Below, in pieces: positions 14,061-63,900 of a DNA stretch of 64,000 bases; position 1 is the first letter of the stretch, and every line of letters begins with the position of its first letter. Under the pieces are notes generated by a model that saw nothing but the letters and a program-made list of their open reading frames with translations, had not been told where the DNA came from and made no database searches. Position numbers and translations under genes: made by a program. The DNA comes from Zhenpiania hominis. GTDB taxonomy: Bacteria; Bacillota; Clostridia; Peptostreptococcales; Anaerovoracaceae. The stretch covers positions 1-64,000 of the forward strand of contig NZ_JACRYT010000008.1 in NCBI RefSeq assembly GCF_014333425.1, in the 5' to 3' direction.

Positions 14061-14262
14061 GTGTCCAAAACAAAAAAAGAAAGGCTTTTGGACACGTTTT
14101 GTTGGAAGTGCATGTTTATGAATGGGGATAAAATGAAAAAATCAGTAAAACAGACACGTTTTTTCCGGTTTGAATAAGATATCAGCGCTTCCAGGTTTCC
14201 GTCACCGTTAAAATCTTAATACAAACGTGTCCAATCAATCCAAAAATTAAAAAAATACACAT
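14061..14262. repeat. Paired hairpin repeat with a TTTTGGACACG unit (copy F)
   Basis: Hairpin 1 is GTGTCCAAAA (14061-14070) with TTTTGGACAC (14086 on). An inverted unit ACAAACGTGTCCAA follows at 14221-14234, whose AAACGTGT pairs with ACACATTT near 14257. A partial third unit, GACACGTTTTTT, is at 14152. The unit is shared with copy E at 33569-33753. The rest of the 629-bp gap (13967-14595) holds the terminators listed separately and AT-rich sequence with no gene. Confidence 0.6.
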
Positions 14263-21856: not shown

Positions 21857-22019
21857 TTTATCAACATTTTGCGAAATTTCCCGTTTGTTTATAAAAATTA
21901 CAGCGTTCCAGAGGGCTTGTTCCTACTTTTCCCTTGCGGCTGGGTTCAGCCCGCCGATTCATGGCCGGAAAGCCTTGAAATTTTAGTAACAACTACGAAA
22001 ATTTTCGATTTGTTTCTAA
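21857..22019. repeat. 163-bp double-hairpin repeat, copy A
   Basis: The left hairpin (21857-21895) runs from TTTATCAACA to TGTTTATAAA. The right hairpin (21983-22019) runs from TTAGTAACAA to TTTGTTTCTAA. The core holds GTTCCAGAGGGCTTGTTCC and a GC-rich stem around GGCTGGGTTCAGCC. It is the same length as copy B (22939-23101) and about 90% identical by eye, in the same orientation. Copies C and D share the outline. It ends 18 bp from the stop of the PD-(D/E)XK-like gene. Confidence 0.85.
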
Positions 22020-22037
22020 CCTTCTTTCTGCTTTCCA

Positions 22038-22850
22038 TTATTCCTCCATTCCAAAATAGTGTCGTATCGTCCAATTAATATGGGAAAAGCTGAGAGGCAT
22101 ATGCTTTGTCTCCCAGGTCATAATCAGGTTGTCCCCTAACCGATACCCGTTTCGGGCATAGCGGTTTAGTTTTTTCATCGCCTCTGCCGCATATCCCGGA
22201 TCATCCATTTTTCCAAAATGTTCCCAGATCAGAATCCGTCTCTCTACTGGGTGAAGAATCTCAAAATCCGGTGAAACTCTGTAGTTTTCCAAGCACAGAA
22301 TTGGCTCATAACGGAATGTCAGTCCATACTGCTCCAGCTTTGTCGCAATTTCCGCTTCCGCTTTTGAACGGACAGCGACCCCACCTTCTGAAAAGCACCT
22401 CCGTTCTTCCGGAAAAATCGTGTTTTGCTCATAATTCTGCGAGTCCCATTGTTCCGGCGATAAATCGCCTTCAAGGAGTAAACGCCGCGGATCAAAATCC
22501 CGGTAATAATCCGGAAGTTCCGCCCGAACCTGATAAGGATCGTAGATTCGCAACCGCTGCTCCGCTTGTCTGCAGCAGGCGGCGTTTTTTCTCAGCAGCG
22601 GAATCGCCTTACTAATATAACGTGCCTCTTTTAAATCTCCGATGAATTCATCGTAATCGGGAAAGTCTTTCGGAATAATCAGCTGCATTCGTTTTCCCTT
22701 TTCTGTAACTGCCCTGTAATAGGATCCGTTTTTATATACCAGACTTCCCTGAGGGAGCTGCTTTTTTCTCTGCTCCAGTCGCTCCAGCAATGATTCCGTT
22801 CGCAGCCGCTCTTTATGGAGCAAATCCATTAATTGGTTTTGTTGAAACAT
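22038..22850 (-). CDS. PD-(D/E)XK-superfamily-like protein between direct 163-bp repeats
   Basis: 270 residues. The N-terminal 110 residues are charged and helical. The C-terminal half has a nuclease-like core: S-K-x-E (E165), Y-x-Y/F-E-x-x-L, P-D-F (D195), then W-E-H-x-G (E210) and a Lys/Tyr-rich helix. The order E...D...E-x-H matches PD-(D/E)XK folds with a variant last motif. A paralogue with the same motifs is at 32760-33554. GGGAGG precedes the ATG at 22850. The gene lies between repeats A and B, suggesting a mobile or repeat-associated cassette. No transposase HUH or DDE motif is visible. Activity is not demonstrated. Confidence 0.6.
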   Translation of the reverse strand: MFQQNQLMDLLHKERLRTESLLERLEQRKKQLPQGSLVYKNGSYYRAVTEKGKRMQLIIPKDFPDYDEFIGDLKEARYISKAIPLLRKNAACCRQAEQRLRIYDPYQVRAELPDYYRDFDPRRLLLEGDLSPEQWDSQNYEQNTIFPEERRCFSEGGVAVRSKAEAEIATKLEQYGLTFRYEPILCLENYRVSPDFEILHPVERRILIWEHFGKMDDPGYAAEAMKKLNRYARNGYRLGDNLIMTWETKHMPLSFSHINWTIRHYFGMEE

Positions 22851-22938
22851 CCTCGCCTCCCAATAATTGTAAATTTATTGAAATTATACCTTTTATTTCT
22901 TTTTCGCGCAACTCTTTTTTCTGTGTTTCAGAAGGCAA

Positions 22939-23101
22939 TTTATCAACATTTCTCAATATTTCCCGTTTGTTTATAAAAATTACAGCGTTCCAGAGGGCTT
23001 GTTCCTACTTTTCCCCCGCGGCTGGGGTCAGCCCGCCGATTCATGGCCGCAACGCCTTGAAAATTTAGTAACAAATGCGGAAATTTCCGATTTGTTACCA
23101 A
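22939..23101. repeat. 163-bp double-hairpin repeat, copy B
   Basis: Left hairpin 22939-22977, right hairpin 23065-23101 (TTAGTAACAAAT with ATTTGTTACCAA, one mismatch). Core and orientation match copy A. The nuclease-like gene starts 89 bp away on the left. The rest of the 290-bp gap (22851-23140) is AT-rich without a gene. Confidence 0.85.
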
Positions 23102-23103
23102 CA

Positions 23104-29892: not shown

Positions 29893-30984
29893 TTAAGAAC
29901 CCAGATACCCCTTCTCCACATACGGGCTGGTGGCGCAGGCCAGCATACCGCCGTAACCCAGTTTGAAGGAAACGATGTCTCCCACTTTATAAGGAATTTC
30001 TGACTTTGTCACATCGAGGATCATGTGGTCTGAACTGGCGCCGAGAATATCAACGCCCTTATCCAGAGGTTCCATGCTGTCCGGATCGGTATCCTGTCTG
30101 CCGATTGCGATAATGGCCCGTTTGATAATGCCCCGGTCTTCATAATGGGGCTTTTGCCCGAAGGCGTCCACCCCTACTTCACCCACCGGGAGGGACGGTT
30201 TTTCTTTCAGCTCCACGATCTGCGCTTCCAGAATCAACGCGTCGTCTGTGGTTCCGGGAAGCTTCGTTCCATAGGCGGTGTCATTCCCCAAAAGGAAGGA
30301 TTCTCCCAGCCGCAGGTTATTGATTTTTTCCGGAAGTTCGCCCCTTTCGATCAGATAAATAGAACTGGAGTTGCCGCCGGAGATCATCTGCAGGCGAATG
30401 CCGAATTTGTTCTCGATTTTTTCCGCCCACTGGCACAGCAGGGATAAGTTATCATGCTTGGGAATAATCGCGCCGTAGCAGGTCAGGTTGACGGCGATGC
30501 CGTAAAGCTCCAAGTGTTCCAGCTTTAAAACCAGTTCTGCCGCCGCGAAGATTTCCGTTTCGTTCTGATAGAAAATTCCCTCTCTCAGATCCCCCAGATC
30601 GATCATCAGCACAACCTTATGCGTTTTCTCCTGACGCCCCGCTTCCTCATTGAGAAGCTTCAGGGTCTCCGGCTCGGAGTTAAAACTGATATCGGCAAAC
30701 GCGACGGTCTCTTTTAACTCGCATTCCATAGGAATCCGCAGCAGGACGGTCTGCTTTCCTCTTTCTTTCGCTTTCCCGGCGTAGGTTTTCAGATTCCGCG
30801 TCCGGGAATCCGCCATAAAATCCACGGCCGGATGACGGCTCACCAGATCGATCATTTCCGGATCCGCGCAGAGGGCTTTTGTTACGATCATCAGGGAGCA
30901 TCCGCCCTGCTTCTTCGTAATTTCCGCTACCGCGTCCAGATTGTTTTTGAGTTTCTGTAAGTTTATCGTAAGTCTCGGATACAT
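29893..30984 (-). CDS. orr: Ornithine racemase (alanine racemase-family fold)
   Basis: 363 residues. A fold-type III PLP enzyme: the PLP lysine is in IVTKALC, and the barrel motifs MIDLGDLREGI, SGGNSSSIYLI and NLRLGESFLLGND match ornithine/alanine racemase-family enzymes. It converts L- to D-ornithine, the substrate of OraSE. Last gene of the ornithine operon, after the mutL-like gene. A paralogue lies at 41186-42277, so one of the two may act on another amino acid. Confidence 0.85.
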   Translation of the reverse strand: MYPRLTINLQKLKNNLDAVAEITKKQGGCSLMIVTKALCADPEMIDLVSRHPAVDFMADSRTRNLKTYAGKAKERGKQTVLLRIPMECELKETVAFADISFNSEPETLKLLNEEAGRQEKTHKVVLMIDLGDLREGIFYQNETEIFAAAELVLKLEHLELYGIAVNLTCYGAIIPKHDNLSLLCQWAEKIENKFGIRLQMISGGNSSSIYLIERGELPEKINNLRLGESFLLGNDTAYGTKLPGTTDDALILEAQIVELKEKPSLPVGEVGVDAFGQKPHYEDRGIIKRAIIAIGRQDTDPDSMEPLDKGVDILGASSDHMILDVTKSEIPYKVGDIVSFKLGYGGMLACATSPYVEKGYLGS

Positions 30985-32759: not shown

Positions 32760-33554
32760 CTACAGCAGCCGATTTCGGATCTCCGCTTCTATCATCCGTG
32801 AGTCCAGATTTCCTGTTTCATCGTCATAGGTAACGATCAAATTTTTCCAGGGAACAATTCCCGCCCGCTCATACATATCCAGCTTCCATTTGTGATGCTT
32901 CATGTACCGGGGATTTCCCACCAGTCCGCAGTGTTCCCAGTAAAACAGCTCTCCCCGGTGGAAAATGGTAAAGTCCGGACTAAATCGCCGGTTTTCAATG
33001 TACAGCACCTGCTCATAACGGAAGGGGACCTGATAGGCTTCCAGCTTTTCCGCGATGACCACTTCGGATTTGGAACGTACTCTCAGCCCTCCGGCAGTTA
33101 CATGGCATTTTTCTTCCGGACGGCTTTTATCCTGTTCGAATTCCGCCGCGGCCCAGTCTCTGGCCTCCTGCCATTCCTCTGAAAACAGCCCGGCGGGAAG
33201 CTGCTGCCAGGACTTTGGCAATTTCTTCAGAAGATTATCCGGGGTTGGCTCCAGATGTTTTTTGAGCAGAGATTCCAGCGCCGGAATATTTTTCTGAAGG
33301 AGGGAAAGAGACTCCTGCAGGTATTGCTTTCTTGCCAGCGCCCGGATCATTTCCGGCTGCTTGGTAATCCCCCTGCGAATCTTTCCTGCCCCGCTTTCCT
33401 TTTCCGTCAGATAGTGGACAAAATTCATTTTTCCCTTTTCCTTCCGGATTACCAGCTTGCCTGCAGGCAGAGAATTCAGCTCCTTCTGCTGCTTCTCCTC
33501 CATTGTTTTATATTCATTTAACAAATTCAATAAATATTCATCCGCGTATCCCAT
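32760..33554 (-). CDS. PD-(D/E)XK-superfamily-like protein inserted within the ornithine operon
   Basis: 264 residues and a paralogue of the 22038-22850 gene. The same core is present: S-K-x-E (E164), FRYE, P-D-F (D194), W-E-H-x-G (E207), then a K...Y helix. Similarity is clear in the C-terminal 110 residues and weak in the helical N-terminal part. The ATG at 33554 follows GGAGGG; the longer TTG frame reads into repeat E. It has no link to ornithine metabolism and separates oraE from the mutL-like gene, so it looks like a later insertion. Its 5' flank carries repeat E. Function unknown. Confidence 0.6.
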   Translation of the reverse strand: MGYADEYLLNLLNEYKTMEEKQQKELNSLPAGKLVIRKEKGKMNFVHYLTEKESGAGKIRRGITKQPEMIRALARKQYLQESLSLLQKNIPALESLLKKHLEPTPDNLLKKLPKSWQQLPAGLFSEEWQEARDWAAAEFEQDKSRPEEKCHVTAGGLRVRSKSEVVIAEKLEAYQVPFRYEQVLYIENRRFSPDFTIFHRGELFYWEHCGLVGNPRYMKHHKWKLDMYERAGIVPWKNLIVTYDDETGNLDSRMIEAEIRNRLL

Positions 33555-33568
33555 TTTCCCTCCAAAAA

Positions 33569-33753
33569 TGTCCAAAATCAAAAATTAACGGTATTTGGAC
33601 ACGTTTTTTGGCTTCCCCACGCCCCACTTGCTAAGGGGCAACCAGAAAAAACAGGATTTTTCCACTGTTTTGAAGCTTTTTTCAAAGAATAAATATCCAC
33701 TTTACGAAAAAACGTGTCCAAACGCTTTCTTTGTTTCTATGATACACGTTTTT
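33569..33753. repeat. Paired hairpin repeat with a TTTGGACACGTTTTTT unit (copy E)
   Basis: Hairpin 1 pairs TGTCCAAA (33569-33576) with TTTGGACA (33594-33601). Hairpin 2 pairs AAAAACGTGT with ACACGTTTTT (33744-33753). The inner units TTTGGACACGTTTTTT and AAAAAACGTGTCCAAA are a perfect 16-bp inverted repeat around a core of about 100 bp. The unit recurs in copy F. It fills most of the 321-bp gap between the nuclease-like gene and oraE. Confidence 0.75.
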
Positions 33754-39523: not shown

Positions 39524-39686
39524 TTTGGAAACAAAAAGAAAAAAAACGTATTTGTTTCCAAAAAAGACTAGGTTCCAGAAGGCAAAAAACAATCACTTCC
39601 CTTTTCAAGGGCGAAGTTTGCTTTCTTGTCCTCTGGAACCATTGAAAAATTAGAAACAAATCGAAAAAATTTTGTTTTGTTACGAA
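39524..39686. repeat. 163-bp double-hairpin repeat, copy D
   Basis: The left hairpin has perfect 12-bp arms (TTTGGAAACAAA and TTTGTTTCCAAA, 39524-39562). The right hairpin begins TTAGAAACAAA (39650) and ends at 39686. The core is bounded by GGTTCCAGA and TCTGGAACC. Same length as copies A and B, with a diverged core. It ends 2 bp from the regulator's stop codon. Confidence 0.8.
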
Positions 39687-41185: not shown

Positions 41186-42277
41186 TTATACATAGACAAT
41201 ATCCACATTTGGCGAATTTGTCACGTACACAATGGTAGAATAGCACAAATCAAATTCAATGATATCGCCCACCTTATATTCCCTCTGGCAATCCTGCACA
41301 TCCAGGATCGTATGGTCGCTGGAAGCTCCCAGAATCTGAATATGTTTATCCCGTGGGATCAACATATCCGGAAAGGCAAAGTCCGCTCTTCCCAGAGCAA
41401 TCAGCGCTCTCTTGCGAATTCCCCGATCCTCAAATTCAGGCTTGCGCTCAAACGCGTCGTACATGATCTTGCCCACAGGATAGGTCGGCTTTTCTCTGGC
41501 CTCAATGACTTCCGCCTGGAGGGTAAAAACATCCCGATGCATATCGCTCATGTCACAGCCCCAGAAATCCTGCAGATCCCTTGCCAGCAGCATCGCTTCT
41601 CCGATACGGAGAAGATTAATCCTTCTTGGCATATTCTTCTCCAGCACCCGCGGATAAGACGTTGTGGAACCGCCGGCGACAAACTCCAGCTCCCGCCCGA
41701 TCTTCTCCTCGATCGCTTCCGCGCATTCCACCAGCTCGTTAAGCTTTTCCACGGTAGCGTCAATCCCTCCATAGCATCCCAGGTTGGTACCCACTCCGGC
41801 AAGCTCCAGATTGTGCATATTGTTTTCCACGCAGAGAGCCGCTTCCATCAGTTCTTCCCTATCCCAAAAGCCTTCTCTCAGATCCCCCAAATCGACCATA
41901 AGAATGACTTTGTGCTGCTTGTCTTGCAATCCTGCCTGATGGTTTAAAGCTCTCAGCACTTTGGCTTCGCTATTCAGACTGATTTCTGTCAGACGAACCA
42001 CATCCGCGGCTTCGCTGAGCATCGGCACGCGAATCAGCATAAAATCCGCCTGAACGCCGTAGTTCCTCACCGCTTCAATCTGATCCAGCCGAGATGAAGC
42101 AATAAACCGGCAACCCTCCTGTGCCATGAGCTTGGCACACTCCGGAAGGCCGCTGCACCCTTTGATGACGCCCGCCACTTCAACGCCCTGATCCTGGCAG
42201 TTAACCAGCACCCGATCAATATTGTGCTGCAGCTTCTTCAGGTCTACTACTAGTTTTGGATATCTGTTTTTGTTCAT
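41186..42277 (-). CDS. Ornithine racemase-like PLP enzyme (second paralogue)
   Basis: About 363 residues, same family as orr: PLP lysine in AGVIKGCSG, MVDLGDLREGF, AGGSTTSYPRVL and INLRIGEAMLLARD. The active-site serine/threonine pattern differs (GGSTTS versus GGNSSS), which may mean another basic or small amino acid. Start at ATG 42277 with GAGGAAAGG. It shares a transcription unit with the upstream acyl-CoA synthetase-like gene and lies next to the ornithine regulator. Confidence 0.8.
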   Translation of the reverse strand: MNKNRYPKLVVDLKKLQHNIDRVLVNCQDQGVEVAGVIKGCSGLPECAKLMAQEGCRFIASSRLDQIEAVRNYGVQADFMLIRVPMLSEAADVVRLTEISLNSEAKVLRALNHQAGLQDKQHKVILMVDLGDLREGFWDREELMEAALCVENNMHNLELAGVGTNLGCYGGIDATVEKLNELVECAEAIEEKIGRELEFVAGGSTTSYPRVLEKNMPRRINLLRIGEAMLLARDLQDFWGCDMSDMHRDVFTLQAEVIEAREKPTYPVGKIMYDAFERKPEFEDRGIRKRALIALGRADFAFPDMLIPRDKHIQILGASSDHTILDVQDCQREYKVGDIIEFDLCYSTIVYVTNSPNVDIVYV

Positions 42278-61164: not shown

Positions 61165-61326
61165 TTAGAAACAAGTCGAAAAAAGCAGCAATTGTTTCTA
61201 ATTTTTACTGAGCTGCAGCGCCTCAAATTCCGATTTTTGCGAGGATCCCCGCATTTTTGCCAGACATGGGGCCGAAACCCTGAAAAATTTATCAACAATT
61301 TGCCATAAACCAGGATTGTTGATAAA
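61165..61326. repeat. 162-bp double-hairpin repeat, copy C
   Basis: The left hairpin has perfect 10-bp arms (TTAGAAACAA and TTGTTTCTAA). The right hairpin has perfect 11-bp arms (TTTATCAACAA and TTGTTGATAAA). The two stems are those of copies A/B but swapped in order, so this copy is in inverse orientation. It fills most of the 302-bp gap between xdhC and the ligase gene and lies inside the minus-strand cluster. Confidence 0.82.
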
Positions 61327-63715: not shown

Positions 63716-63737
63716 GAGGGCATAGTAACAATTCAAT

Positions 63738-63840
63738 ACACAATCCGATTCCCGGAGTCCTAAGGCTGTCGCTATGGATCCGGGAACATTGGGTTCATGT
63801 GGAAACATATGGGCCTCCCGCGTTTGAAAAGGTTCGTGTA
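63738..63840 (+). ncRNA. Molybdenum/tungsten cofactor (Moco/Tuco) riboswitch
   Basis: The 3' half GGGCCTCCCG...GAAAAGG...GTGTACAT closely matches the E. coli moaA Moco RNA as I remember it. P2 pairs TTCCCGG (63749-63755) with CCGGGAA (63780-63786). A stem CATGTG-GAAA-CATATG (63796-63811) carries the GNRA tetraloop. P1 pairs TACAC with GTGTA. The P3 region is short or absent, which has been linked to the tungsten-cofactor subtype. The downstream gene starts at 63986. Confidence 0.85.
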
Positions 63841-63900
63841 CATATCTAAAAAAAGCAACGGTTCCGCATTTTGCGGGCCTTCATTTCAGGATACCGGCAG

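Follow-up and report, generated by a model that had tools for sequence, protein, structure and literature searches.

The closest described counterpart of a gene that sits among its own palindromic repeats is the REPIN-RAYT system. This system comprises a gene flanked by cognate palindromes, which also occur as paired dispersed copies; the palindromes are species-specific, and their abundance is tied to the presence of the gene (PMC2817692, PMC3116915). RAYTs are described as single-copy (PMC8049555), and in RAYT/REPIN palindromes a short-loop hairpin is accompanied by a GTAG or CGTC tag (PMC3733652).

The locus considered here lies in Zhenpiania hominis (GCF_014333425.1, contig NZ_JACRYT010000008.1), within a stretch of 64,000 nt (positions 1-64,000, forward strand) that was analysed as a whole and is called the window below. 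An earlier note on this DNA had drawn attention to a nuclease-like gene between two double-hairpin repeats laid out like REPIN/BIME elements. The account favoured here, to which we assign a probability of roughly 0.6, is that the gene belongs to a family of sequence-specific nucleases of some gut and rumen bacteria, in which each member is paired with its own palindrome family, and that gene and palindromes together form an accessory, probably mobile unit.

Two gene-palindrome pairs in one window

A single ORF, gene 1 (22038-22850, minus strand, 270 aa), lies between elements A and B and has intact palindromes on both sides. Element A (21857-22020, plus strand), downstream of the gene, consists of palindromes 21857-21895 and 21983-22019; element B (22939-23102, plus strand), upstream, consists of palindromes 22939-22977 and 23065-23101. 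In both, the palindrome centres are 125 bp apart. A and B are direct copies, 164 nt long and 90.2% identical when aligned ungapped; the earlier estimate of two equally long, similarly oriented copies of 163 nt with about 90% identity was thus right to within a nucleotide.

Two solitary elements had been put forward as further copies: C (about 39525-39686, strand not assigned; palindromes 39525-39561 and 39650-39686, with arms TTGGAAACAA/TTAGAAACAA; centres 125 bp apart) and D (about 61165-61326, minus strand; palindromes 61165-61201 and 61288-61326; centres 124 bp apart). Their layout agrees with this proposal and their sequence does not. All four elements share two interrupted palindromes of 37-39 bp each, with arms that are variants of TTAGAAACAA and TTTATCAACA, but C and D have diverged so strongly from A and B that BLASTN aligns the ends alone. 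In D, the order of the two palindromes is reversed relative to A and B.

The window also contains a second family member, absent from the earlier note. Gene 2 (32760-33581, minus strand; 273 aa from TTG, or 264 aa from ATG at 33554) matches the family profile at E 1e-61 and is 31% identical to gene 1. A palindrome, GTGTCCAAAA/TTTTGGACAC, occupies its 5' edge (33568-33602), and a degenerate palindrome of the same motif lies upstream (33714-33747; centre 145.5 bp off). A solitary perfect copy at 14061-14095 has a degenerate partner at 14227-14260, 165.5 bp away, and a possible decayed copy at 10291-10334 matches the reference copy at 68%; none of these palindromes is given a strand. The half-site GTGTCCAAAA differs from the motif at gene 1, and the window therefore holds two pairs of different specificity, each with repeats that reach beyond their own gene to distant positions. 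Motif pairs for TTAGAAACAA, TTTATCAACA, and GTGTCCAAAA, picked from the window itself, number 4, 3, and 2, respectively (total mismatches at most 2, span 30-42), against a mean of 0 in 15 Markov-simulated windows.

Rfam gives a single match in the window and no other known RNA: a Moco riboswitch (63731-63850, plus strand, 63 bits), which fits the many Moco genes in the window. The repeat labelled D4 (30573-30633 and 41866-41926) lies inside two paralogous ORFs, presumably alanine-racemase-like sequence.

A predicted nuclease with a conserved active site

The structure model of the gene 1 protein (pLDDT 90) has two principal parts: an N-terminal coiled-coil hairpin with a three-stranded sheet (residues 2-100), and a C-terminal PD-(D/E)XK-like domain (about residues 145-268). 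Its best matches include PD-(D/E)XK structures and are modest (best Foldseek E 0.03; best VIA Z 8.5, for the nuclease part). This is the fold that the earlier note had suggested looking for, on the strength of S-K-x-E, P-D-F, and W-E-H motifs in a nuclease-like protein. These motifs fall within the C-terminal domain, and across the family alignment the S-K-x-E, Y-E, P-D, and W-E-H region is invariant. Residues E165, E182, D195, E210, and H211 are present in 100 of 100 copies. With the modelled core fold and the conserved acidic residues that define the PD-(D/E)XK superfamily, the protein is a predicted nuclease.

Lysine 214 is a different matter, occurring in merely 27 of the 100 copies. Its invariance in alignment A2 (the window plus 43 of 46 loci, excluding the broken L001 and the short ORFs L009 and L025) arises because the genome scan used the search word WEHFGKMD.

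Searched alone, the N-terminal domain gives no confident fold match; an AP2 domain was considered for this part (Foldseek E 0.96 only) and is not claimed. The protein as a whole has no match in Pfam (up to E 1, Y1_Tnp included), NCBIfam, PHROGs, or PDB sequences, and a scan of viral_contigs yielded no confirmed relative. The closest database proteins are metagenomic (98, 88, and 85%); named close proteins come from Anaerovorax odorimutans and Ihubacter massiliensis.

Palindromes accompany the gene family

The genome scan identified 46 loci, spread over Lachnospiraceae, Anaerovorax, Treponema, Fibrobacter, and other groups. Repeats are shared across both gene flanks at 12 or more of these loci, examples being L001 (205 nt, 95%), L022 (156 nt, 97%), and L030 (335 nt, 98%). 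A profile search of 28 genomes at E 0.001 gives between 1 and 12 matches, some partial, in every one.

The gene is associated with cognate palindromes. This was evaluated with 100 full-length copies from 16 of the 28 genomes, hand-picked among the matches listed, by searching within 700 bp of each gene; 675 windows from the same stretches served as controls. At least two related palindromes accompany 52 of the 100 copies but 5 of the 675 controls; for at least three, the corresponding counts are 31 and 0. A maximum 10-mer count of at least four is likewise reached by 52 copies, against 11 controls. With a looser cut (a 10-mer count of at least three, or two palindromes), 75 copies are positive and 25 show neither signal; the 10-mer count of three is by itself reached in 33 of the 675 controls. 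In a further set of 28 loci, two or more palindromes accompany 15, compared with 14 of 629 controls. The earlier note tied the repeats to an unusual partner protein, and would have given up the link had homologues never been near such repeats. They are near them, far above controls, and one family reaches 106 palindromes in its genome.

The distribution of the gene is patchy. A phylum sample of 299 genomes gave a match at E 1e-30 in five, one of them through a mere domain in a 656-aa frame; the multi-copy genomes of this sample, G001 and G368, have seven matches each.

Palindromes are spaced by whole helix turns

The arrays beside the genes are phased with the DNA helix. Centre-to-centre distances form a comb: 41-42, 50-54, 62-64, 72-76, 82-86, 92-96, 104-108, and 126-128 bp. 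For 69 distinct spacings, the resultant R is 0.77 at 10.5 bp (phase 0.0), against 0.29 at 9.5 bp and 0.24 at 12.5 bp. A second set of 23 spacings gives R=0.84, and is partly dependent, since it includes loci orthologous to one another and to members of the first set (Treponema). Tandem Repeats Finder, a detector independent of the palindrome search, returns periods with R 0.60 near the gene (n=69, p 2e-11) and 0.22 elsewhere (n=25, p 0.3), p values that assume independent arrays, which related arrays are not.

Within the window, the pairs of A-D span 11.8-11.9 turns and that of gene 2 spans 13.9; the pair at 14061 spans 15.8 and is poorly phased, and element F is 2.5 bp out of phase. Spacings at multiples of 10.5 bp make duplex DNA, read on one helix face, likelier than hairpins.

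Motifs differ between genomes and paralogues

One Anaerovorax gene copy lies beside an element with 43 matches in its genome; the two flanking copies are 98% alike, and other near-full-length copies about 70-78%. The palindrome core, found 106 times in its own genome, does not exceed two occurrences in any of 246 other genomes of the family (for the reversed pattern, used as a control, the maximum is 5). Placed by a crude ORF caller, 11 of 28 Anaerovorax elements fall in ORFs (an unreliable class), 11 in co-directed gaps, 4 in divergent gaps, and 2 in convergent gaps. The gene at L001 (G001:C271:6655-7452), which lies between copies of the most abundant element family, is interrupted by a stop, a point against the account favoured here. 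At four other Anaerovorax loci (L211, L213, L215, and L223), elements lie within recent tandem duplications of about 260-590 bp in two to four units, possibly products of cutting and repair.

The Fibrobacter palindrome has 19 copies in its own genome, 8 of them next to the gene and 11 at other places, and is absent from 27 other genomes; the pattern TTGCGATA..TATCGCAA occurs in 3 of 28 genomes. Of 98 genomes, four have the Treponema palindrome, and in all four a family gene adjoins one array. Statistically, other genomes have few or no copies of a given gene's motif. Motifs also differ between paralogues of one genome, which can accommodate several gene-motif pairs with different motifs, as the window does with two.

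The similarity of motifs rises weakly with N-terminal identity (Mantel r 0.11, p 0.03) and shows no such relation to C-terminal identity (r 0.03, p 0.29), as calculated for 37 of the 46 arrays with nine weak motifs left out. Among Treponema orthologues, identity is 90-94% in the arms, 42-66% in the loops, and 38-80% in the linkers. Amid the variable loop sequence (alignment A3), an off-centre (C/T)ACT is partly kept; it could mark orientation or a cut.

Occupied and empty sites

One presence/absence case is a Butyrivibrio site (G007), where a 2.77-kb block consists of seven palindromes, the gene, and nine palindromes. In the related species G382 and G428 the block is missing, and its flanks lie 8 and 11 bp apart. 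The site thus shows the occupied and empty alleles expected of homing, a difference that could also reflect loss. Ten relatives were compared at this site: two have the clean empty sites, and the remaining eight show different content, an inversion, or, in G381, a further family gene. The latter (L272; 64% DNA identity) occupies the intergenic gap that contains the block in G007, and no palindromes were detected with it.

At the gene 1 locus, five relatives compared have no family ORF; G180 and G001 are syntenic on both sides, with different sequence filling the gap. The neighbour genes of C and D were found in relatives, where a coarse comparison revealed longer or otherwise different gaps and no clean empty site. 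Neither a target-site duplication nor a clean single-element empty site was found among the relatives compared. The earlier note had left the choice open between a mobile, a structural, and a defence role; the empty sites at the level of the whole block favour a mobile or accessory one. The solitary arrays of G013 and G022 and the patchy distribution of the gene are further points for mobility.

A model, and its competitors

We strongly infer that the protein binds its own palindromes. The evidence supports a palindrome composed of two inverted 9-10 bp half-sites in duplex DNA. With successive palindromes whole helix turns apart, a row of protein dimers probably assembles on one helix face. 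Recognition of the half-site would fall to the fast-evolving N-terminal domain, and cutting within or beside the array to the conserved PD-(D/E)XK-like domain at the C-terminus. Repair of the cut from another copy would then spread the element and at times the gene too, in the manner of homing. Solitary elements such as C and D would be what remains once flanking copies recombine, much as solo LTRs arise. Cutting and copying by the gene-array unit are what we infer from the fold, the conserved active site, and the empty sites.

Four other explanations were weighed. Co-operative repressors typically bind phased sites, and the arrays might accordingly be operators: the protein would repress its own gene, the nuclease would act elsewhere, for example in defence, and movement would be incidental. 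Array position cuts both ways. At 25 of 49 loci the arrays are upstream only, as operators should be, yet at 15 they are on both sides and at 9 downstream only; on these positions, autoregulation is rejected as a complete account. A defence role could draw on PDC-S68, a candidate defence helicase profile whose last 120 residues match the C-terminal domain (E 6e-20). Against operators speak the solitary arrays away from any family gene (in G013 and G022, no family ORF lies within the 7-kb stretches compared) and the 106 palindromes of one genome. We consider this explanation unlikely.

A second possibility is that the dispersed elements organise or mark the chromosome, as long-term host binding sites served by a domesticated gene. 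Purifying selection acts on the gene (dN/dS 0.10-0.17 in five gene pairs) and on the arms, array position is conserved in four Treponema genomes, and Anaerovorax has dozens of dispersed elements, all in keeping with such a role. A settled host function sits poorly, however, with the patchy distribution, with up to a dozen matches per genome, with block-level empty sites, and with motifs that change between paralogues of one genome. It appears quite improbable.

The third possibility, single-strand transposition in the manner of RAYT/REPIN, would have the palindromes form hairpins and move as single-stranded DNA. It accounts for the layout, since a gene flanked by cognate palindromes with dispersed copies is what is seen at RAYT loci, and it was the layout that the earlier note had recognised. 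The arms offer it little: changes are mainly one-sided (135 cells), and the 17 symmetric ones slightly exceed the 10.8 expected (p 0.017), which leaves some room for hairpins. Folding of A and B barely beats shuffled sequence (z -1.6 for A folded as DNA and -2.1 for B folded as RNA). The hairpin reading is rejected on these weak z-scores and the mostly one-sided changes. Moreover, the family protein has no Pfam match, Y1_Tnp included, and a 10.5-bp comb is unexpected for single strands. A Y1 transposase (PF01797) was not detected in 13 of 27 gene-bearing genomes, the Anaerovorax genome among them, so a RAYT is not the rule. The comb points to duplex DNA, and single-strand transposition is disfavoured as very improbable.

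Finally, an RNA- or spacer-based array (CRISPR-like, TIGR-like, or a type III toxin-antitoxin repeat) would fit the constant arms, variable loops, and regular periods, but is scarcely credible given copies on both sides of the gene and far from it, a Moco riboswitch as the sole Rfam family in the window, and loops that change between four Treponema orthologues through gradual substitution, at fixed places and with no exchange, the finding on which exchangeable acquired spacers of the CRISPR kind are rejected.

The accessory, probably mobile nuclease-palindrome unit remains our preferred account. A bolder claim, evenly balanced in our judgement, is that these units make up a new class of selfish gene-repeat element: one-protein nucleases of rapidly diversifying specificity, which act in phased rows on their own arrays and copy the element, with or without the gene, by cutting and repair. 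A search of open-access PMC gave no description of such a nuclease-palindrome pairing, and no tested family's features were found here as a whole. If the model is right, the tens of gene-motif pairs that can be read from genomes would be a natural data set on how DNA-binding specificity changes. The phasing would predict a higher-order nuclease assembly on DNA, and where gut or rumen bacteria have palindromic repeats but no RAYT, the family would be a candidate source.

Comparison with known systems

Homing endonucleases of the EDxHD and PD-(D/E)XK types, such as I-Bth0305I, are one point of reference. Here the gene is bracketed by intact presumed sites, in whole arrays, and apparently does not split its site; there is no intron or intein. 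TnsA of Tn7 is a further point of reference; however, the window's ORF list has no transposase partner beside gene 1, and site reader and nuclease are apparently one protein. The PADLOC candidate PDC-S68 resembles gene 1 in its last 120 or so residues (gene 1 residues 145-265 match profile positions 1093-1218 of 1221, E 6e-20). Its profile, of about 1200 residues, is that of a helicase-nuclease, whereas gene 1 encodes 270 aa and the remainder is missing.

REPIN-RAYT is the nearest in organisation: cognate palindromes lie by the gene and are dispersed in the same genome, with the qualification that both sides are flanked at 15 of 49 loci only. The enzymes are unrelated, the RAYT being a Y1/HUH tyrosine transposase and the present protein PD-(D/E)XK-like. 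Genomes here have several paralogous genes each, in contrast to a RAYT. The palindromes are interrupted, with spacers of roughly 15-20 nt and helix-turn phasing; by inspection, no common tag of the GTAG/CGTC type accompanies these wide spacers in the window palindromes or in the half-site consensus of 46 arrays. The gene-array unit works like a RAYT system and is not one. If the proposed model is true, it would be a second, independent solution to the REPIN-RAYT role, in which a gene is kept with a population of short palindromes and a restriction-like nuclease takes the place of a single-strand transposase.
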